Assembly: GCA_017305635.1 (NCBI GenBank)
Contig: JAFKKF010000010.1
Span: forward strand, 62,001 to 126,000
Length of the DNA: 64,000 nucleotides
DNA from: Hyphomicrobiales bacterium
GTDB lineage: Bacteria > Pseudomonadota > Alphaproteobacteria > Rhizobiales > Kaistiaceae
Reading direction: 5' to 3'
Below the pieces are notes generated by a model, which saw only the letters and a list, made by a program, of their open reading frames with translations, was not told the origin of the DNA and did not search any database. The translations under genes were made by a program, and so were the position numbers. Position 1 is the stretch's first letter, and each line of letters starts with the position of its first letter. This document shows, piece after piece, positions 21,651 to 32,633 of this stretch.

Positions 21651-22640
21651 ATGCTCACGAAGAAACTGCTTCTCGGCGCCGCCGCGGCGGGCGCCCTCGT
21701 CGCGGCAGTCGCGACCGCGCAGGCCGAGGACCCGATCGGCAAGGGCCTCGTCATGTACATGCAGATGGGCGGCCAGTCGGGCGACGGCGCGACGCTTGCC
21801 CGCGAGACCGGCGCCAAGCAGGCGGCCGCGGCGCTCGGCGTCGAGCTGAAGGCCCAGTACTCGGCCTGGGACCCTGCGACCATGATCAACCAGTTCAAGG
21901 ATGCGGTGGCGGCGAAGCCGAACTGCATCGAGATCATGGGCCATCCGGGCTCGACCGCCTTCCATGACCTCGTCAAGTCCGCGGTCGACCAGGGCATCGT
22001 CGTCACCTCCGGCAACTCGCCGCTCAGCGACCTGCAGAAGGAGTTCGGGCCCAAGGGCTTCGGCTATGCCGGCGTCGACCTCTATGCCGGCGGCGCGCTG
22101 ACCGCCGAAGCGATGATCGCCAAGGGCCTGAAGTCGGGCGACGAAGCCGTCGTCTACGGCGTGTTCGACCAGGCCGAGCGCGGCCAGTCCGAGAAGGGCC
22201 TCGCCGATACGCTCGAGAAGGCCGGCCTCAAGGTCGACCGCCTCCAGGTCAGCCAGGAGGTGAATTCCGACACCACCCTCGCCGTGCCGGTGCTCACCGC
22301 CTACATCCAGGCGCACCCCAACCTGAAGGCGATCGGCAGCCAGCATGGCGGCATCACCGGCGAGCTTCCGGAGATCCTGAAGAAGGCGGGCAAGAAGCCG
22401 GGCGACATCATCGTCGGCGGCATCGACCTCGCGCCGGCGACCGTCGACGGCCTGAAGTCGGGCTATATCAGCGCGACCCTCGACCAGCTCCTCTACCTGC
22501 AGGGCTTCATGCCGGTCTTCCAGTGCGTGATGACGGCCAAGTACAAGATGCCCGGCATCTCGATCAACACCGGCGCCGGCACCGACTCGCCCGAGTCGAT
22601 CGGTGACATCACCGGCCTCATCGACGCGGGCATCCGCTAG
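21651..22640 (+). CDS. Sugar ABC transporter substrate-binding protein
   Basis: Periplasmic binding protein of 329 residues, type I fold (Peripla_BP_4). The signal peptide is cleaved after TAQA. The mature part starts with a first strand KGLVMYMQMGGQSGDGATLARETGAKQAA and has the hinge/ligand region GGIDLAPATVDGLKSGYI typical of pentose/hexose-binding proteins. GGGAGAGAG precedes ATG 21651. It is the last gene of the gntR-ATPase-permease-binding protein cluster. Its TAG stop overlaps the convergent TIR-TPR gene within CTAG. Confidence 0.9.
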   Translation: MLTKKLLLGAAAAGALVAAVATAQAEDPIGKGLVMYMQMGGQSGDGATLARETGAKQAAAALGVELKAQYSAWDPATMINQFKDAVAAKPNCIEIMGHPGSTAFHDLVKSAVDQGIVVTSGNSPLSDLQKEFGPKGFGYAGVDLYAGGALTAEAMIAKGLKSGDEAVVYGVFDQAERGQSEKGLADTLEKAGLKVDRLQVSQEVNSDTTLAVPVLTAYIQAHPNLKAIGSQHGGITGELPEILKKAGKKPGDIIVGGIDLAPATVDGLKSGYISATLDQLLYLQGFMPVFQCVMTAKYKMPGISINTGAGTDSPESIGDITGLIDAGIR

Positions 22641-25393
22641 TCGGACCTGCCCGACGATCCCGGTTCCGAAACCATGACGCCGGCGGCACCCTCCGCCGGC
22701 GCTTCCGCCTCGGAGTCCAGCTCGTCCTCGAGCTTCTCAAGAATCTTGTTCAGGTCGGCGAGGGTTGCCCGTGCCGTCTGCAGCCAAGTGCGGTCGGCCG
22801 CATTGAGCGGGCTCTTGGCGTCGATCTCGGTCAACCCGTCGATCACCTCGCTCAGGAGGTTGCCCCGCTCGAAGGTGTTGCCGAGAAGGGCCTGCAGCTT
22901 CCACTCGGCATTGATCATCTCACGAAGCCGCGTCAGGCTGGTGGTGTCGGTCAGGTCGCGCCTCAAGTCGATCGCTTCGCGATAGGCCGCGATCGCCCCA
23001 TCCGTGTCGCCCAGCCGACGCTTCCGAGCGGCAATCTTCTCAAGGTTCAACGCCAGATCGCGGCGAAGACTTTCCTTGGCGGGCGCCTTCGCGACGATAT
23101 CGCGCCGGATCGTGAGGCTCGCCTCGTATTGCTTCAGCGCGCCGGCATCGTCGCCCTTCGCCACCAGCACGTCCGCGATGTCGGCGTGGGCGGCGGCGAC
23201 CAGCCCCGCCTTCTCGACATTGGTCGCGTCCAGCGCCAACAGCTTCTCCCGCAGGGGCAGCGCTTCGGCGAAGGCCTGCTCCGCCGCCCCATAGTCCTGC
23301 TCGCGCAGGGCGAGGCTGCCTACGCGCTGCAAGCTTGTCGCGAGCCCCGCCGCCACGGATTCGCCGCTTGCATCGAGCGCACGATAGATGGCGAGAGCCT
23401 CCGCGTAGGAGCTGCGGACGCGACCGAACCCGTCCTCGATCCCGTCGTCCACGAGGCTCCACACGCCATAGCCGAGGGCGAGCAGGCCGTCGGCGAGTTG
23501 CGCGCGATACTTGCCGGCGCCGTCCGATGCCTCGACCAGCGCGCGGCGCCACTTGACGGCCTCCGTGAAGTCACCGACGGCAGCGCTATCCTCTCCGATG
23601 CCCAACCGTCGATATCCCTTGTCGATCAGGGTATCGGCGACATTCTCCTGCCAGAGCAACTTCGGGGAATCATCGCGTGCCAGGCCGCGGAAGATCGCTT
23701 CCGCCTCCTCCAGCCGCGCAAGCGAGCGTTCCGCATTGCCGCGCTGCCAATCGACGTTGGAGAGCTGGCGGAGCGTCGCGGCGAGGCCGTTCCGCCAGTC
23801 GGCATTGCCCGGATCGACCGCTACCAGATGCCGGCGGAGCGACTCCGCCTCGTCCAGGGCGGCAGCGGCTCCTGTCAGGTCGCCTACCGGCATGGCGTGC
23901 GTGGCGATCTCCGTCAGCACGAAGGCGACATTGTCCTCCGCCCGCGCATTGCCCTTGTCCTCGGCATAGAGCGCCCGCCGCAGCGCCAGCGCCTCGCCGA
24001 AGGCGGCATTCGCCCGCAGGCGGTCGGGTTCGGCCTGGCCGATATTGGTCAGCGTCCAGGCGAGGTCGTTGCGCGGCCCCGGCTTGCCCGGCTGCGCCGC
24101 GATCAGGCCGCGCCACAGCGTTGCCGACTGGGCGAGCAGCGCCAGCCCGCCCTTGGCGTCGCCGCCCGTGACGAGCTGGTTGGCCTTGCTGCGCAGGTCC
24201 CAGGCCTGCCGGCTCTGCCAGTCGAGGCTTTTCGGGTCCGCCGCGACGAGCTTCGCCAGGATCGCCAGGCTCTCGTCATAAGCGGCGATGGCGCCCTTCA
24301 GGTCGCCGGCCTGCCCGCGTGCATAGGCAACCCGCGACAGGCTTTCCGAGACCGCCGCCGCCCGTTCCGGATCGTCGCTGCCCGCGGCGAGCGCACGGCG
24401 GATGGCAAGGCTCTCGCCATAGGCGGCGAGCGCCCCGGCATTGCCGCCCTTGGCGATGTACGTATCGCCGATCTGGACCAGCGTCGTCGCGCGTGAGGCG
24501 CGTAGCGCCGCATCGGCCGGGGCGATGGCGTAGAGACGGTCGAGCGCGGCCTGCGTCGTCGTCAGGATCTTCTGCACGCTCTCGACGCGCATGCCCTGCA
24601 CGTCGCGGAGGTCGTGGACGATGTCGGCGACGATCTTGTCGACCGTCTCCCGCGCAATGCCGAAGTTGCGCGTCGCCTCCTTCGCCCGCTCGACGGCGAT
24701 CCAGGCGCCCGCCGCCGCGCCGACGGCGAGCACAGCCACCACGCCCGCCGCACCATAGGCGACGCGCAGGTTTCGCCGTTGCTGGCGGAGCTCGGCGGAA
24801 TAGAGGTCGGCTTTCTCGACGCCCTTGATCGTCGCCGCGAGATCGAGCGCGGCATGGAGGAAGGCCTGGTCCGACTTGGTCGCCCGCGCCGGCTCGGCGC
24901 GGAACGCGCGGAGGTCCACCCAGAGCGGCTCCTCGCGGAACCTGCCCCGCAGCGACGGCGGCAGTGGCGTCGCCTCCCCCCAGGCGAAGTCGCCAGCCGC
25001 GGTGTCCCAGGCAAGGTCCCCGCCGGTCAGCCCGATCAACAGGCGGCCGATGCCCGCACCGGCGACGAAATGGGCCACCTCGCGATCGACCCAGATCGAC
25101 TTCGCCGCCTCCGGCGATGCGAGCAGGATCAGGTACCGCGAAGCGTCCAATTTGCCGGCTATCGATTCCCACAGTCCCGGCGCCGCCGAGAGGCTCGCCG
25201 CGTCGAGGAAGACGTTGAGGTTGCGCAGCTTCCACCACGGCTTGCCGATGGTCTGGATGACCGATCGCAGCGCTCCGGCAATCGCCTTGTCGCCCCGCTG
25301 GCTGTAGGAAATGAAGGCGTCGTACGCGCCCGCCCGTGTCGCCGCCGGAACCCCGGTTCCGCGGCCGTCCATCCCGATTGCGGCCTCAGCCAC
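22637..25393 (-). CDS. TIR domain - membrane helix - TPR protein
   Basis: A 918-residue protein. An N-terminal TIR domain (about 22-165) begins YDAFISYSQRGDK; WVDRE places a Glu (E105) where TIR NADases have their catalytic Glu. One membrane helix (about 212-233) follows. Then comes the motif IARETVD-x9-LRDVxGMRxESV (247-273), shared with the upstream TIR protein, and a long series of TPR-like repeats rich in Ala/Leu/Arg to near the C-terminus. The start is GTG 25393, or ATG 25372. The gene is 127 bases downstream of the TIR-STAND gene on the same strand. NADase activity and a defence or signalling role are inference. Confidence 0.85.
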   Translation of the reverse strand: MAEAAIGMDGRGTGVPAATRAGAYDAFISYSQRGDKAIAGALRSVIQTIGKPWWKLRNLNVFLDAASLSAAPGLWESIAGKLDASRYLILLASPEAAKSIWVDREVAHFVAGAGIGRLLIGLTGGDLAWDTAAGDFAWGEATPLPPSLRGRFREEPLWVDLRAFRAEPARATKSDQAFLHAALDLAATIKGVEKADLYSAELRQQRRNLRVAYGAAGVVAVLAVGAAAGAWIAVERAKEATRNFGIARETVDKIVADIVHDLRDVQGMRVESVQKILTTTQAALDRLYAIAPADAALRASRATTLVQIGDTYIAKGGNAGALAAYGESLAIRRALAAGSDDPERAAAVSESLSRVAYARGQAGDLKGAIAAYDESLAILAKLVAADPKSLDWQSRQAWDLRSKANQLVTGGDAKGGLALLAQSATLWRGLIAAQPGKPGPRNDLAWTLTNIGQAEPDRLRANAAFGEALALRRALYAEDKGNARAEDNVAFVLTEIATHAMPVGDLTGAAAALDEAESLRRHLVAVDPGNADWRNGLAATLRQLSNVDWQRGNAERSLARLEEAEAIFRGLARDDSPKLLWQENVADTLIDKGYRRLGIGEDSAAVGDFTEAVKWRRALVEASDGAGKYRAQLADGLLALGYGVWSLVDDGIEDGFGRVRSSYAEALAIYRALDASGESVAAGLATSLQRVGSLALREQDYGAAEQAFAEALPLREKLLALDATNVEKAGLVAAAHADIADVLVAKGDDAGALKQYEASLTIRRDIVAKAPAKESLRRDLALNLEKIAARKRRLGDTDGAIAAYREAIDLRRDLTDTTSLTRLREMINAEWKLQALLGNTFERGNLLSEVIDGLTEIDAKSPLNAADRTWLQTARATLADLNKILEKLEDELDSEAEAPAEGAAGVMVSEPGSSGRSD

Positions 25394-25458
25394 GTTCCGC
25401 CCAGTTCATCCGGCGCCCCTGCCCCACGTTCCGCCCAGTTCATCCGGCGCCCCTGCCC
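25391..25458. repeat. 34-bp tandem duplication in the TIR-TPR leader
   Basis: Two perfect, adjacent copies of a 34-base unit, 25391-25424 and 25425-25458, directly before and overlapping the GTG start of the TIR-TPR gene. Since 34 is not a multiple of three, copy-number change would shift any reading frame across it. Each copy contains a short ATG-AAC-TGG open frame on the minus strand. Confidence 0.9.
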
Positions 25459-25520
25459 GGGGCCAATGTCGCACGAATCCGGCGCGGTGTTGACCGTCGC
25501 GCGGCGGATTTCCGGCGCGC

Positions 25521-28500
25521 CTATTGCGCGGGGGCCGTAGGCGTCCGCGTTGCGGGCTGCTCCTCGGGCGGCGTCTGGTGGGCGGGCTCGGGCGTCGGCG
25601 CCTCCATCTCCTTCTTCAGCTTCTCGAGGAGGCCTTTCATCACGTTCATCGGCAGCGGAAGCTGGCCGGCATCGGAGAGCTTCTTGATCATCGCCAGCGC
25701 TTCGTCGATCAGGGCGCCCTTGCGCGCCAGGTCATCGTTCTCGCTGATCGCCACCTGGGTCAGGCAGAGGATCAGGTCGGTCTGGGTGGTGATGTTCTGC
25801 GGGTCGATCCCGTAGAGGCGGCGGGCGATCTTCAGCCCTTCCTCGAACAGCGCCTTGCCGCCGGCGAAGTCCGCCGTCTGGACCTTGGCATTGGCGACCT
25901 TGTTGGTCGCCACCATCAGGTCGCGCTGCCAGTCGCGATTGTCGGGATCGATGTCGGCGAGGCGCTTCGAGATAACCAGCTCCTCGTCATAGACGGCGAC
26001 GGCGCCCTGCTTGTCGCCGAGGTTCATCTTGGCGTCGCCGATACGCTCGAGGCAGATCGAGAGGCCGCGCTGCCAGAGGGCATTGTGATGGTCGGCCTCG
26101 GCGAGCTTCCGCGAAATCACCAGCTGTGCCTCATAGGTCTTCAGCGCGCCGGCATGGTCGCCCTTGGCCTCCTCTGCATCGCCGACCTTCTCGTGCGCGA
26201 TGGCGAGGTCCGCCTGCCAGTCCTTGTTGTCCGGGTCGCTTGCCGAGACGCCGGCCATCACGGTCAGCGCCTCCTGGAACGAGGCGAGCGCGTCGTCGGA
26301 CTTGCCGGCGGCAAGCTGTGAATCGCCCACCTTCTGCAGCGCGATCACGAGGTCGCGGCGGCTCTGGGTATTGCCGGTGTCCTTGGCGAGGATCGCGCGG
26401 GCGAGCGTCAGCGCCTCGTCGAAGGTCTTCCGCGACTGCTTCTCGTCGCCGAGCCGGCTCTCGCTCTCGCCATAGGCAAAGAGGCTCATCAGCAGGTCAC
26501 GATGCCGTTCGGGCGGCGCATCCGCCGCAGCCGCGAGCCGGCGCGCAATGTCCAGCGCCTCGCGATAGGCATCGACCGCGCCTGCCGTGTCGGCCATCGC
26601 CATCTTCGCGTCGCCGACCTTGACCAGCGTGAACCAGACGTCGGGCTGGGAGTCGACCCCGTCCGGCTGCCGCGCCGCGATCTTGCGGGCGACGTCGAGC
26701 GCCTCGGCATAGAGCGCCAGCGCCTCCTTGACCTTGCCGGCGCGGAGCTGGAAGTCGCCGTAGCGGGTCAGCATCACGCAGAGGTCGCGATCCTGCTCGC
26801 CCTTGCCGCCGTCGAGGCCTACCAGCCGGCGGCGAAGCGCCAGCGCCGTCTCATAGATGGACCCGGCCGAGGCGGTGTCGCCGGTGCGGAGATAGATGTC
26901 GCCGAAGAGGGTCAGCATGGCAGCGCGCGTCCGCTGCACGCTGATGTCGTCGGGCGCCGCCTCGGCGAGCTTGTCCACGGCCGCCTGCACGCGGGTCAGG
27001 ATGGTGCGCACGCTTTCGAGCCGCATGCCCTCGACGTCGCGCAGGCCCTGCGCCACGTCGAGGACGACGCTGTCGACGGTCTCGCGGGCGATGGTGAGGT
27101 TCTTGGTTGCCCGGTCGGCTTCGGCATTGGCGCGCGCCGCTTCGGCCGTGGCGCGGGCCGCCTCGGCATTGGCCCGGTCTGCCTCCTGCGTGGCGCGGAT
27201 CGCCTCGTCGCTCGCGCGCCGTTCCGCCTGGAAGGCGAAGACGCCGGCGCCGATGGCGACCAGCGCGACGAGCCCGAGGAGGACGGCCGCGATGCGCGTG
27301 CGCCGCTGCACGCGCTGCGCCGCGTCGCGCTCGGTCTCGGCCTGGCGGAGCTTCGCCTGTTCGAGCTCGCGGCGCTGTTCCTCCTCCTGCCTGCGGCGTG
27401 CCTCCTCGGCGGCGTCGGAGGCGCGGATGAAGTCGGCCTCGTCGCGGTTGAAGCGGGCCGGATGCTCGATCAGCCATTGCCGCGCCCGGCGGAGCAGGAT
27501 GCCGGCTATCAGCCCCTTGTCCTTGTCGGCCTCGGGCAGGCCCTGCCAGTCGGCGAGCGCCTTTTCGAGCCGGTTGCGGCCGATGAGGAATTCCTTCTCC
27601 TCGTTCAGCCAGCCGATGAGCAGCGGCCACACGCGGAACAGCGCCTCATGCGCCACCTCCACCTCGCGTCCGCCGCGCCGGTCGCGGATCACCAGGAGCC
27701 GCGCCGCCGGCCCGGCAAGCGCCGCGATCAGGCGCCGCGCATCGTCGGGAATGCTCTCCCAGGCCGCCGCCTGGCGGACGAAGCCGCCCTCGTCATTGAC
27801 CCTGACCAGCCCCGGCACGAAGGCCTCGCGCAGCGCCTTCAGCTCCGCCTCGCTCGGCCCCAGGTCGGCGAGCACGCGGCCCGCCGTGTCGCGCACGATC
27901 GTCTCGAGCGGCGAGAGCCCCGCCGCGGCGTCGCGCAGCCGCTCGTATTGCGCCAGCGTCATGTGGCGGTCGGCGCCGATCTCGTCGTAGAGCCGGCGGA
28001 GCGCGAAGGCGACCAGCGGCAGCGCGTCGGTGGTGCGCGCATCCGCCGTCATGCGGAGCACCAGCTCTTCCTCGACGTCGACGCCGGCGACCCGCGCCGG
28101 CCCGCGGATGATCTCGCCGATGCGCTCGACCGGCATCGGCCGCAGCGAGAATTCCTCGAACTCGGTCGAGAGCCCGTTCGCGCGCTGGAGGTCGCCGAGA
28201 TGGTCGGAGCGCATGGTCGCGGCAATGACGAAGGGCAGGCCCGGCTTCAGCATCCGGCTGAGCAGCGCCACGAACTGCGCCCCGCGCTCGGGCGAGGCGC
28301 GGGTGAAGGCCTCCTCGAACTGGTCGATGGCGATCAGGATCGCGGCATGGTGCGCGTCATGGGCATTGGCGAGGGCGACCGCCAGCTCCTCCGGATCGGC
28401 ATCGACCAGTTGCGACGAGGTGCGGTCGACGCCCGCCTGCCGGAGGCTGCGGGCGAGCCCCATGAAGGGGTCCTCCTCCGGCCGGAAGCAGGAGAGCACG

Positions 28501-29147
28501 ATCCAGTCGCGCTTGACGCGCCTCAGGCGCGGGATGACGCCGGCGCGCAGCAGCGAGGACTTGCCGGTGCCGGATTCGCCGAGCACGGCGACGAAGCGGC
28601 GGCCGCCCTCGATGCGCCGGCTCTCGAGCCGCTGGATCAGCCGACGGATGTCGTCGTCACGGCCGAAATAGATCGCCGCGTCATCCTCGTCGAAGGCGAA
28701 GAAGCCGGGATAGGGAGCCCTCCCCGCCGGAAAGTCGAAGCCGCCCTGGCTCTGCAGCGCGACCTCGGTCAGCTCCTGCGCCAGAAGCTCGAGCCCGCCC
28801 GCCTCGTCACGCCAGAGCTTGATCTTCTGCAGGTCGTCGCCGACGTACTGGTCGCCGTCCGGCGAGATGATGACCGGGAAGATCGCCTTGCCGCGCGAGC
28901 GGGCCTGCGCGAACTCGGCGAAGCACCACTTCGAGTCGAACCAGTTCTTGGTCAGGATCAGGATGACGGCCTGCGCGTGCTCCAGCTCCTCGTAGAGCGT
29001 CTGCTCCCAGCGCGCTCCCGGCGGGATGCCCTGGTGCTTGTCTATGTCGAGGAATCCCTGCTCGAAGCCCTGCGCCCGGAGCCAGGCGAAGATCTTCCGC
29101 GCCGCATCGTTGTCGCGGCTCGAATGGGAAATGAAAACGCGCGCCAT
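25521..29147 (-). CDS. TIR - STAND ATPase - membrane helix - TPR protein
   Basis: A 1208-residue multidomain protein. TIR domain 1-130, starting VFISHSSRDND, with putative catalytic E78 in WCFAEF. STAND NTPase (nSTAND1-like) about 146-560: entry motif PYPGFFAFDEDDAAIYFGR, Walker A GESGTGKSS at 190-198, Walker B ILIAIDQFEE at 270-279. Charged coiled coil 575-615, membrane helix 619-639, Ala-rich AEAxRA repeats 640-682, the shared IARETVD motif at 687, then about eight TPR-like units of roughly 50 residues with WQxDL and KVGDxxxAxG patterns. AATAGGAA precedes ATG 29147. Probably a ligand-sensing signalling or immune ATPase; the function is unproven. Confidence 0.87.
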   Translation of the reverse strand: MARVFISHSSRDNDAARKIFAWLRAQGFEQGFLDIDKHQGIPPGARWEQTLYEELEHAQAVILILTKNWFDSKWCFAEFAQARSRGKAIFPVIISPDGDQYVGDDLQKIKLWRDEAGGLELLAQELTEVALQSQGGFDFPAGRAPYPGFFAFDEDDAAIYFGRDDDIRRLIQRLESRRIEGGRRFVAVLGESGTGKSSLLRAGVIPRLRRVKRDWIVLSCFRPEEDPFMGLARSLRQAGVDRTSSQLVDADPEELAVALANAHDAHHAAILIAIDQFEEAFTRASPERGAQFVALLSRMLKPGLPFVIAATMRSDHLGDLQRANGLSTEFEEFSLRPMPVERIGEIIRGPARVAGVDVEEELVLRMTADARTTDALPLVAFALRRLYDEIGADRHMTLAQYERLRDAAAGLSPLETIVRDTAGRVLADLGPSEAELKALREAFVPGLVRVNDEGGFVRQAAAWESIPDDARRLIAALAGPAARLLVIRDRRGGREVEVAHEALFRVWPLLIGWLNEEKEFLIGRNRLEKALADWQGLPEADKDKGLIAGILLRRARQWLIEHPARFNRDEADFIRASDAAEEARRRQEEEQRRELEQAKLRQAETERDAAQRVQRRTRIAAVLLGLVALVAIGAGVFAFQAERRASDEAIRATQEADRANAEAARATAEAARANAEADRATKNLTIARETVDSVVLDVAQGLRDVEGMRLESVRTILTRVQAAVDKLAEAAPDDISVQRTRAAMLTLFGDIYLRTGDTASAGSIYETALALRRRLVGLDGGKGEQDRDLCVMLTRYGDFQLRAGKVKEALALYAEALDVARKIAARQPDGVDSQPDVWFTLVKVGDAKMAMADTAGAVDAYREALDIARRLAAAADAPPERHRDLLMSLFAYGESESRLGDEKQSRKTFDEALTLARAILAKDTGNTQSRRDLVIALQKVGDSQLAAGKSDDALASFQEALTVMAGVSASDPDNKDWQADLAIAHEKVGDAEEAKGDHAGALKTYEAQLVISRKLAEADHHNALWQRGLSICLERIGDAKMNLGDKQGAVAVYDEELVISKRLADIDPDNRDWQRDLMVATNKVANAKVQTADFAGGKALFEEGLKIARRLYGIDPQNITTQTDLILCLTQVAISENDDLARKGALIDEALAMIKKLSDAGQLPLPMNVMKGLLEKLKKEMEAPTPEPAHQTPPEEQPATRTPTAPAQ

Positions 29148-29293
29148 CGCGTTCCTATTATCGGGCGCGCCCGACGGCGCAAGAGACTTGCGTCACATTG
29201 CGGGAGTCGACGTCCTTTGGGTGCTTGCCCGCACTATGCACCGCTGCCCGGAACGACTAGCCTCGGCGCGGGGAATGCCTGCGGGAGGGACGG

Positions 29294-29866
29294 ATGAAAT
29301 ACCTGTTGCCAGGAATTGCGCTTCTCGCCGGCCTGTCTTCGGCTTCGGCCGAGCCGATCTGCTCGACGCTCGGCACCCTGATCGAGCAGGGTTCCACCGG
29401 TTGGGACGGCCTTCGCGGAGAGTCGATCCCGCTCGCCGAGGACGAGATCGGCAGCGTCAACGGAAAGTGGCATGCGCCGTCCGTGGGAACGATCGGCTCC
29501 TGCACCATCGTGGAGGAGCCCGCCCTCTTCTCGTATAGCTGCTTCCAGAGCGCCGCCGACGGGCAGGACCTTCTTGCCGCTACGCGTGACGTCGCCCGCA
29601 AGCTCCTCGGAATCTGTCTCGAGGAGTCGGATTGGCAGTACGAGGAGAAGGATTTCTCGGACGCCGCAGGCAAGAGATCGACCTACGCCTTCTGGACGCA
29701 GGATAGGAAGTTGCTGATCGGCTTCAGCTGGGTTCCGCCGGCTGGCGATGCCTCGCCGGCCTCGGCGGGGTTCGAGATGCGCGCTTACCGGGACGACGGC
29801 ACCGAGCCCGAGGAAACGGAAGTCGAGCCTCCCGAAGTCAGCGCGCCTGCCCGCCCGGCTCCGTGA
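29294..29866 (+). CDS. Secreted protein of unknown function
   Basis: A 190-residue protein with a signal peptide (MKYLLPGIALLAGLSSASA, cleaved before EPIC). The mature part has four or more Cys, Trp-rich segments (GSTGWDGLRGES, ESDWQYEEKDF, YAFWTQDRKL) and a Pro/Glu-rich tail. The family is not recognised. GGGAGGGACGG precedes ATG 29294. It diverges from the TIR-STAND gene with 146 bases between them, so it may be part of the same accessory region, but nothing links them functionally. Confidence 0.78.
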   Translation: MKYLLPGIALLAGLSSASAEPICSTLGTLIEQGSTGWDGLRGESIPLAEDEIGSVNGKWHAPSVGTIGSCTIVEEPALFSYSCFQSAADGQDLLAATRDVARKLLGICLEESDWQYEEKDFSDAAGKRSTYAFWTQDRKLLIGFSWVPPAGDASPASAGFEMRAYRDDGTEPEETEVEPPEVSAPARPAP

Positions 29867-29906: not shown

Positions 29907-30404
29907 CTAAGGCTGGATCTGGACGTAGCCCTGCTGCACCAGTTCGACGATGCGGAAATTGGCGCCGCTATTGACCTGCACACCGGCGAGCAGGTCGGCA
30001 TTGCCCCAGCCCTTTTCCTTCGCCGTCTGGCCGCAGAGCTCGAAACGGACGCCTGCCTTCTGCAGCTTCTCGATCTCGGCGCGGTAGGGATTGCCCGTCC
30101 GGGTCTTGCGAACCCGGTCATAGGCCTTGTCGCCGAGGATCATGTAGCCGGCCGGGCCGTGGAACACGGCGACGATCCGCCAGTCGGTCCTGTCCGCGGC
30201 AAAGCGCTCGGTCATCAGGCGCATGTATAGGAGCCCGAAGGGCTCCTTCCCGTCGAAGGCGAGGTGGTCCATGTTCATGACCACGTCGGCCTTCTTGAGG
30301 ACGACCGGCACGTCGATGGTGAGCCCTGCCGGTTCCGCGGCGCGGGCGAGGCCGGGCGCGGCGACGACGGACAGCGCAAGTGCAAGCGCGAACAGGGTCT
30401 TCAT
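29907..30404 (-). CDS. Periplasmic DsrE-like protein
   Basis: A 165-residue protein with a signal peptide (cleaved near ARAAEP) and a DsrE/DsrF-like alpha/beta domain. The conserved Cys region is RFELCGQTAKEKGW, resembling the sulfur-binding cysteine of DsrE-type proteins, followed by the C-terminal VNSGANFRIVELVQQGYVQIQP. No other sulfur-oxidation (dsr/sox) gene is nearby, so a specific sulfur-trafficking role cannot be claimed. Confidence 0.8.
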   Translation of the reverse strand: MKTLFALALALSVVAAPGLARAAEPAGLTIDVPVVLKKADVVMNMDHLAFDGKEPFGLLYMRLMTERFAADRTDWRIVAVFHGPAGYMILGDKAYDRVRKTRTGNPYRAEIEKLQKAGVRFELCGQTAKEKGWGNADLLAGVQVNSGANFRIVELVQQGYVQIQP

Positions 30405-30597: not shown

Positions 30598-31104
30598 ATG
30601 CCCGTCTCATACCCTGTTCCGAACTGGCGCGCGCTCCGTGCCGAAGACCTGCCCGCCCTCTCCAGAGTGGCGGAAATCGTGCATCCCGGCTTCCCGGAGG
30701 ACGACGCGGTCTTCGCCGAGAGGCTCGCGCTCGCACCCGACTGGTGCCTGGCACTGGCGAGCGAAAATCTCCTTATGGGCTATGTACTTAGCCACCCCTG
30801 GCACGATGGCGCGCCACCCAGGCTCAACAGCCTCATCGGCGCCCTGCCCTCGCCGCCCTCGGCCGCCTACATCCACGACCTCGCCCTCCTGCCGGAGACG
30901 CGTGGCGGCGGACACGGCCAGACCATCGTCAACCGCCTGATTTCACAGGCAAAATCGCGGGGACTGGCGGCCATGGCATTGGTTGCCGTATCCGGCTCCG
31001 TGCCCTTCTGGGAACGGCAGGGATTCCGCGCTCTCCCACCCGATCCGATCCTTGCCAGCTACGGCCCGGACGCGCGTCTCATGCGCCTCGCTCTTGCTTG
31101 CTAG
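30598..31104 (+). CDS. GNAT family N-acetyltransferase
   Basis: A 168-residue acetyltransferase. The acetyl-CoA-binding motif is [25 protein letters not shown] (about residues 90-116) with the RGGGHG loop, and the C-terminal block is [13 protein letters not shown]. The substrate is unknown. It is tail to tail with pccB, overlapping its stop region by four bases. Confidence 0.87.
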
Positions 31105-32633
31105 AGCGGGATATTGTCGTGCTTTTTCCAGGGGTTGGCTAGCTGCTTGGACCTCAGCAGCCTGAGCGCGCGCGCGATCCGCCGTCGCGTCGAATGGGGC
31201 ATGATCACCTCGTCGACATAGCCACGCTCCGCGGCCACGAAAGGCGACATGAACCGCGCTTCATATTCCTTTGTTCTTTCAGCGATTTTTGCCGGGTCGC
31301 CGGCTTCCTTGCGGTAGATGATCTCGACCGCGCCCTTCGCCCCCATCACCGCGATCTGCGCGGTCGGCCAGGCGTAATTGATGTCTCCTCTCAAGTGCTT
31401 GGACGCCATGACGTCATAGGCGCCGCCGAAGGCTTTCCGCGTTATCACCGTGACCTTCGGCACCGTCGCCTCGGCATAGGCGAAGAGGAGCTTCGCGCCG
31501 TGCTTGATCAGTCCGCCATATTCCTGCGCGGTGCCGGGCAGGAATCCAGGCACGTCGACGAAGGTCACGATCGGAATCGAGAAGCAATCGCAGAACCTTA
31601 CGAAGCGCGCCGCCTTCCGCGAGGCATCCGAGTCGAGGACTCCGGCGAGCACCATGGGCTGGTTGGCGACGAAGCCGACCGTCCGCCCTTCGACGCGGCC
31701 GAACCCGGTGACGATGTTCCGCGCGAAGGCCGCGCCGATCTCGAAGAAGTCACCCTCGTCGGCGACCTTCTCGATCAACTCCTTGATGTCGTAGGGCTTG
31801 TTGGCGCTGTCGGGCACCAGCCGGTCGAGGGACGGCTCCTCGCGGTCGAGCGGATCGGAGGTCGGGATTTCCGGCGCCTCGCCGCGATTATTGGCCGGCA
31901 GGAAGTCGATTAGCCGGCGCATCTCGGTCAGCGCCTCGATGTCGTTCTCGTAGGCGCCATCGGCGATCGAGGAGCGCGTCGTGTGGATGCTGGCGCCGCC
32001 CAGCTGCTCCGGCGTAACCGTCTCGTTCGTAACGGTTTTCACGACATCCGGGCCGGTCACGAACATGTAGCTGGTATCGCGCACCATGAAGATGAAGTCG
32101 GTCATCGCCGGCGAATAGACATCGCCGCCGGCGCAAGGGCCCATGATCACCGAGATCTGCGGGATGACGCCGGAGGCCAGCACGTTCCGCTGGAAGACCT
32201 CGGCATAGCCGCCGAGCGCCGCGACGCCTTCCTGGATGCGCGCGCCGCCGGCATCGTAGAGGCCGATGATCGGCGCGCCGTTCTTCAGCGCCATGTCCTG
32301 CAGCTTCTGGATCTTCTCGGCGTGAGCCTCGGAGAGCGATCCGCCGAAGACCGTGAAATCCTTGGCGAAAACGAAGACGGGCCGTCCGTTGACGGTGCCC
32401 CAGCCGGTCACCACACCGTCGCCGGCGATGCGGTTCTCGGCCATGCCGAAGTCGCTCGAGCGATGCTCTACGAACATGCCGAACTCCTCGAACGATCCTT
32501 CGTCGAGAAGCACCTCGATGCGCTCGCGCGCGGTCAGCTTGCCGAGCTTGTGCTGGGCCGCGACCCGCTTCTCCCCACCGCCGGCCCTCGCCTTCGCCCT
32601 ACGCGCCTCGAGTTCCTGCAGAATGTCCTTCAT
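31101..32633 (-). CDS. pccB: Propionyl-CoA carboxylase carboxyltransferase subunit
   Basis: Beta subunit (510 residues) that moves CO2 from biotin to propionyl-CoA. It contains the paired crotonase-like halves of carboxyltransferases: [20 protein letters not shown] and [19 protein letters not shown] in the N half, [21 protein letters not shown], and the acyl-CoA-binding [40 protein letters not shown] and [11 protein letters not shown] in the C half. It partners with PccA at 15364-17349 on the same strand, an unusually distant arrangement. It diverges from the DUF4260 gene across 51 bases. Confidence 0.93.

Follow-up and report, generated by a model that had tools for sequence, protein, structure and literature searches.

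A membrane-anchored TIR-STAND-TPR protein of putative immune function and its optional TIR-TPR neighbor in a Kaistiaceae genome

In this work, we analyzed a window of 64,000 nucleotides from a Hyphomicrobiales bacterium of the family Kaistiaceae (assembly GCA_017305635.1, contig JAFKKF010000010.1, positions 62,001 to 126,000) and found two adjacent genes that each encode a TIR domain, a single predicted transmembrane helix, and a TPR array (Table 1). The first, gene A, also encodes an nSTAND1 NTPase; the second, gene B, does not. Gene A encodes a known kind of immune protein in a membrane-anchored form, and the additions are the membrane anchor and the neighboring gene B. The reading that we favor, tentatively, is that of a membrane-anchored TIR-NLR, probably immune, with B as an optional TIR co-effector. 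An earlier note on this DNA had described the same two architectures, and the open reading frames (ORFs) and Pfam agree with it.

Table 1. Positions in the window of the two genes, their domains, and the borders of the slot that contains them.
Feature	Position	Strand	Basis or remark
rbsB-like sugar-binding protein gene, convergent to B	21651..22640	+	Conserved left border of slot, outside system
Gene B, TIR-TM-TPR, 918 aa, without NTPase	22637..25393	-	Start GTG; ORF list, Pfam
B TPR solenoid, residues 295-896	22706..24511	-	AlphaFold model, fold search
B juxtamembrane helix pair, residues 237-288	24530..24685	-	
B single predicted transmembrane helix, residues 216-234	24692..24748	-	Mean Kyte-Doolittle 2.19
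B-type TIR domain of B, residues 24-190	24824..25324	-	Pfam, AlphaFold model
B WVDRE glutamate E105	25079-25081	-	
Perfect 34-bp direct duplication in A-B gap	25390..25458	.	Overlaps B start codon
Gene A, TIR-nSTAND1-TM-coiled coil-TPR, 1208 aa	25521..29147	-	Start ATG; ORF list, Pfam, codon-based gene calling
A juxtamembrane helices and TPR array, residues 683-1180	25608..27101	-	Pfam, AlphaFold model
A post-membrane coiled-coil linker, whole heptads, residues 640-682	27102..27230	-	21-bp tandem repeats in DNA
A single predicted transmembrane helix, residues 619-637	27237..27293	-	Mean Kyte-Doolittle 2.72
A nSTAND1 NTPase, residues 145-536	27540..28715	-	Pfam PF20703, E 2.4e-82
A TIR domain, residues 4-115	28803..29138	-	Pfam TIR_2, E 2.7e-20
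A WCFAE glutamate E78	28914-28916	-	
pccB-like carboxyltransferase gene	31101..32633	-	Conserved right border of slot, outside system

The nSTAND1 domain of A exceeds the curated cut-off of PF20703 (278 bits vs. 27.1) and contains the Walker A motif GESGTGKSS (residues 190-198) and a Walker B motif, DQ-E (residues 275-279); the Walker core residues are invariant across orthologs (n = 10-12). Six TPR_12 stretches were identified in A by Pfam, and the array reaches about residue 1180. An AlphaFold model of residues 1-800 (mean pLDDT 81) agrees with this domain layout. For B, Pfam detected ThsB_TIR (E 4.7e-6) and TIR_2 (E 1.3e-5) at residues 27-111, plus TPRs, and the AlphaFold model (mean pLDDT 79) has TPR hairpins in a long array. 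Whole-protein sequence matches to A or B were not found among solved structures. The fold searches returned AAA+/ORC-type ATPases and SAMD9 for the STAND domain of A and nothing other than generic TPR solenoids for B; no specific function was gained from these matches. The ORFs antisense to A and B are very long, up to 931 aa (e.g., 26502-29297 on the plus strand). Codon-based gene calling chose exactly the frames of A and B over them, and the antisense ORFs, rejected by codon score, are by-products of high G+C codon bias.

The NADase activity of TIR domains requires a conserved glutamate (PMC10937652), and the earlier note had placed E78 of A and E105 of B in the corresponding WxxxE-type position. 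We built a profile for each TIR type, A and B, and compared it with PDB sequences, which bore out the placement of both residues. The A-type profile matched Cat1, tir-1, and SARM1, in which the glutamate of this motif aligns with E78. AbTIR (8g83 and 7uwg) was among the best matches of the B-type profile, and its W-x-x-x-E motif falls on W101-E105. The WxxxE glutamate of the bacterial TIR of 7uxr was also aligned in these comparisons, and a TPR protein with a TIR domain, PDB 9m0n, was among the A-type matches. E78 does not vary among 15 A-type TIRs. Ten B-type TIRs, which range from alphaproteobacteria to Streptomyces, keep E105; one of them (182 aa, from Rhizobium beringeri) has a three-residue gap just before this position. 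The alignment and conservation of these glutamates support, short of proof, a predicted NADase activity of both TIR domains.

A single strong hydrophobic helix per protein is kept in every A and B ortholog read. In the model of A, a long helix (residues 568-630) enters the membrane, and the heptads that follow (QAERRAS/DEAIRAT/QEADRAN/AEAARAT/AEAARAN/AEADRAT) are an almost pure repeat, encoded by 21-bp tandem repeats. Among the A orthologs, the membrane helix is at residue 619 and the juxtamembrane motif starts at residue 676, 676, 683, 711, or 739; the differences in linker length (0, 7, 35, and 63 residues) are all whole heptads. Among the B orthologs, 12 or 19 residues separate the W that closes the membrane helix from the juxtamembrane motif, a difference of one heptad. 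Judged from these sequences, the heptad-multiple length changes in both linkers fit a putative coiled coil in which register is kept; slippage of the 21-bp repeats alone, without selection, could also give changes of this size. The order of coiled coil, membrane helix, and coiled coil suggests that a signal may be relayed along the helix.

The juxtamembrane module had been described as the same in both proteins, a view consistent with the 42% identity between the modules of A and B in the window; between A-type and B-type orthologs, the identity is 36-66%. An exchange of this module between A and B was hinted at by the pairwise identities. The tree is compatible with one origin, so exchange is not claimed. 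The A of G009 lacks the module, which counts against our favored reading. For the orientation in the membrane, lysine and arginine residues on the N side of the helix and on the other side number five vs. three in A and four vs. four in B; nearly all orthologs have more on the N side, with a small excess. This charge bias weakly points to TIR and STAND domains inside and TPRs outside. Periplasmic STAND-associated sensors have been proposed earlier for other proteins (PMC10907252).

Among characterized systems, the TIR-NLR of P4-like satellites is a single-chain TIR-STAND-TPR protein that protects E. coli from phages (Rousset et al., 2022; PMC9122126). Gene A encodes the same order in one chain, namely, an N-terminal TIR, a central STAND NTPase with Walker motifs, and a C-terminal TPR sensor, and the assignment of A to an immune-type family gains from this likeness in layout. 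In the accessible part of that report, neither the membrane helix and heptad coiled coil of A nor a second TIR-TPR gene, such as the B that adjoins A, is described for the E. coli protein. STAND conflict proteins have variable N-terminal effectors that include TIR (Kaur et al., 2020, 2021; PMC7159879, PMC8195603), and the NTPase of A is an nSTAND1. The EAD principle is that an adaptor domain is common to neighboring genes (PMC7159879, PMC8195603). A and B may resemble this principle in that a stalk-TPR module, i.e., a membrane stalk with TPRs, is common to the ATPase-bearing A and the ATPase-less B. They differ from it in that both neighbors carry a TIR and that no EAD or other known adaptor domain was recognized. 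Animal Toll-like receptors also have a repeat sensor and a TIR separated by one membrane helix, which is a functional analogy only. Their chain order is opposite to that of A and B, in which the TIR is N-terminal, and their repeats are LRRs rather than TPRs. A and B differ further in having bacterial TIR types with the NADase glutamate and, in A, an ATPase, and orthology is not claimed.

The earlier note could match the arrangement to no named system, and our searches agree with this: PADLOC and NCBIfam gave weak TIR matches only and no system-level hit, no match to an AVAST (Avs) family was found at E up to 0.01 in PADLOC-DB, and nothing relevant was found in the open literature on TIR-TPR, TIR-STAND, type III Thoeris, and PDB 9m0n. 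Thoeris has TIR proteins of bacterial defense in common with A and B, and both TIRs match Thoeris profiles weakly, namely, ThsB_TIR in Pfam and ThcB4 (NF058526) in NCBIfam, for which A scores 48.3 bits and B 16.7 bits against a cut-off of 220. A Thoeris-like messenger system, in which a cyclic ADP-ribose signal produced by one TIR triggers a response of the other protein, is nevertheless very improbable. Unlike Thoeris, this locus has no ThsA-type or other messenger-gated effector (SIR2-SLOG, macro-TM, or caspase) in A, B, or their neighbors; the profile cut-offs are not reached, and both proteins end in TPRs.

B lies downstream of A on the same strand after a gap of 127 bp. No promoter-like or terminator-like site was found in this gap, so judged from the sequence, A and B are possibly co-transcribed. 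The rbsB-like gene is convergent to B, and the stops of the two overlap by 4 bp. The neighbors of the pair include sugar transporter genes, a DsrE protein, an exported protein, a GNAT-like ORF, and pccB; upstream of A are an exported-looking protein without a Pfam match (29294-29866, plus strand) and an exported-looking DsrE-family protein (29907-30404, minus strand). No known defense genes are located beside A and B in the window, which also counts against our favored reading.

The interval from rbsB to pccB is a variable slot that has A and B, A, B, or neither, depending on the relative. In our family sample of 28 genomes (G000-G027), A orthologs were found in the window genome, G009, G012 (a Bauldia metagenome-assembled genome), G015, and G017 (two copies), and B orthologs in the window genome, G004, G009 (two copies), and G012. 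Both genes are present in three genomes, only A in two (G015 and G017), and only B in one (G004). The two are adjacent in two of the six genomes with either gene (the window genome and G012) and apart in G009. Next to rbsB, the slot has A together with a 184-aa membrane protein in G015 and B in G009. In G002, G004, and G017, rbsB and pccB are nearby with no A or B between them; A or B is located elsewhere in G004, G009, and G017. In G012, the order is A, the 184-aa protein, and B, which ends at a contig edge, and rbsB is also at a contig edge. The co-occurrence of A and B has a Fisher P of 0.011 across the family and 1.0 within the two genera that have A or B, and thus the family-level co-occurrence reflects ancestry as much as function.

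With A alone, B alone, or the two apart among relatives, the claim of a fixed, obligatory two-component system falls. Rare joint occurrence, which the earlier note had named as grounds for refutation, is thus seen in part. However, TIR genes that adjoin B-type TIR genes are found again at unrelated loci. The 184-aa membrane protein, which has no Pfam match (L069:2090-2641 in G012, between A and B; L070:6010-6561 in G015, right after A; 84% identical), was considered as a third component and rejected. The window genome lacks this protein, and sister-genus genomes without A or B have distant members of it, so it is at most accessory.

The B-type TIR has the signature YDAFISYS...KPW...VFxD...LW...WVxxE and is rare. 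In the order-wide sample, it was found at E 1e-15 in seven of 397 genomes, six of them close, and in the class and phylum samples, the window genome was the only close match. Phage-borne copies of this TIR type were looked for in the phage collection, and none were found. About a dozen B-type genes were read, and at four unrelated loci, two of which are on plasmids, the adjoining gene carries a TIR. The window and G012 count as one locus. G063 has TIR-nSTAND1-TM-WD40 followed by TIR-TM-TPR and then by a TPR-S/guanylate cyclase gene (L077:786-2867). Plasmid pCMU01 of Methylorubrum extorquens CM4 has TIR-TM-WD40 followed, 96 bp apart, by B-type TIR-TM-WD40 (WP_041929394.1 and WP_012606285.1); this pair differs from A and B in having WD40 repeats rather than TPRs and in that the first protein has no STAND domain. 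Plasmid pRlX4 of R. beringeri has TIR-like-WD40, the 182-aa B-type TIR, and TIR-WD40. Four adjacencies in about eleven independent cases, against an expectation near 0.0014 per gene, give a P of about 1e-9, or 2e-4 with 20-fold clustering, although this estimate is rough because the sample is small and partly plasmid-borne and TIR genes are clustered in defense regions. The recurrence above the chance estimate keeps a facultative partnership of A and B plausible, and this recurring neighbor pattern deserves a systematic survey.

Other B-type genes are solitary, namely, those of G004, G009, G601, and two Streptomyces plasmids. NUDIX hydrolase genes are located within 3 kb of the solitary B-type TIR-WD40 genes on the two Streptomyces plasmids (L119:4595-5164 and L121:11233-11772); ADP-ribose is a possible substrate of NUDIX enzymes. 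The B-type gene of G613 has, at a distance of 4 kb, a DUF4062-nSTAND1-TM-TPR gene that encodes this same juxtamembrane module; this neighborhood (L150:2382-14260) also has a trypsin-like gene, and the DUF4062-nSTAND1-TPR gene is divergent. G005 and G010 have nSTAND1-TPR proteins with an N terminus that resembles that of the G613 protein, for which alone Pfam matched DUF4062.

These patterns bear on how far A and B work together. It is quite possible that they are two independent TIR effector systems located side by side in a variable, defense-type slot, with A complete as a TIR-NLR and B complete as a TIR-TM-TPR receptor, both drawn from a common pool of modules without cooperation. Either gene is found alone in some members of the family, including in this slot; A-type genes usually stand alone, with an adjacent TIR gene only in the window and G012 among the close A-type loci read, and the looser B-like TIR-TM-TPR genes are mostly solitary. 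The adjacency of TIR and B-type TIR genes in unrelated loci, well above the chance estimate, argues against full independence. The setting beside a sugar ABC transporter raises another reading, that of a non-immune sensory or regulatory receptor pair that responds to, e.g., envelope or nutrient state, which we consider improbable. The location of A or B next to rbs-like genes in three genomes (the window genome, G009, and G015) and the predicted extracytoplasmic TPRs are in its favor, but the transporter is kept without adjacent A or B in G002, G004, and G017, A or B is located elsewhere in three genomes, and the patchy occurrence is unlike that of a housekeeping regulator.

For the favored reading of a membrane-anchored TIR-NLR with an optional co-effector, we infer the topology, the oligomerization, the NADase activity of A and B, the contact between them, the phage trigger, and the role in phage defense. 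The TIR and nSTAND1 ATPase of A would reside in the cytoplasm, and the helix would cross the inner membrane and continue as a coiled coil that carries the TPR array, which would most likely be periplasmic. Binding of a trigger by these TPRs would be relayed via the coiled coil, upon which the STAND domain would exchange nucleotide and oligomerize. The clustered TIRs may then consume NAD+ through E78, leading to cell arrest or death. B, with a second TIR type on a similar predicted membrane stalk and TPR array but no ATPase, would probably be drawn into the A assembly or be triggered in parallel, and may add TIR activity through E105.

Among antiviral STAND proteins, those characterized with TPRs at the C terminus bind phage proteins within the cell. 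With its sensor array across the membrane, a TIR-NLR would instead watch the envelope for, e.g., phage adsorption, DNA injection, or lysis proteins. A stronger form of partnership, which we regard as rather unlikely, is a heteromeric membrane receptor made of A and B, with two TIR types, coiled-coil stalks, and repeat sensors in the periplasm; the STAND partner would gate the assembly, and the ATPase-less partner would help. If true, bacteria would have an equivalent of the NLR pairs of plants or of Toll-like receptor heterodimers, and plasmids would carry this design with WD40 sensors. The recurring combination of a TIR with a rare second TIR type raises the question of whether paired sensor/helper TIR receptors, as in plant NLR pairs, exist in bacteria. 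The slots with only A, only B, both, or neither in one family provide natural comparisons.

Two further loci with related proteins were observed. Plasmid pRL31b3 of Rhizobium leguminosarum (L194:516-10099) has a relative of A (52% over TIR-STAND), with a CHAT-domain gene upstream and a small gene that matches no known family downstream. The window genome has a second TIR/STAND locus (G000:C6; L116:1-8320), in which only 1 bp separates a 505-aa TIR gene from the nSTAND1 gene that comes after it, whose product has at least 2267 aa, and similar split TIR and nSTAND1 pairs were found in G066 and G139 (L056 and L057). Together with A, this locus means that both strong nSTAND1 genes of the window genome are tied to TIR.
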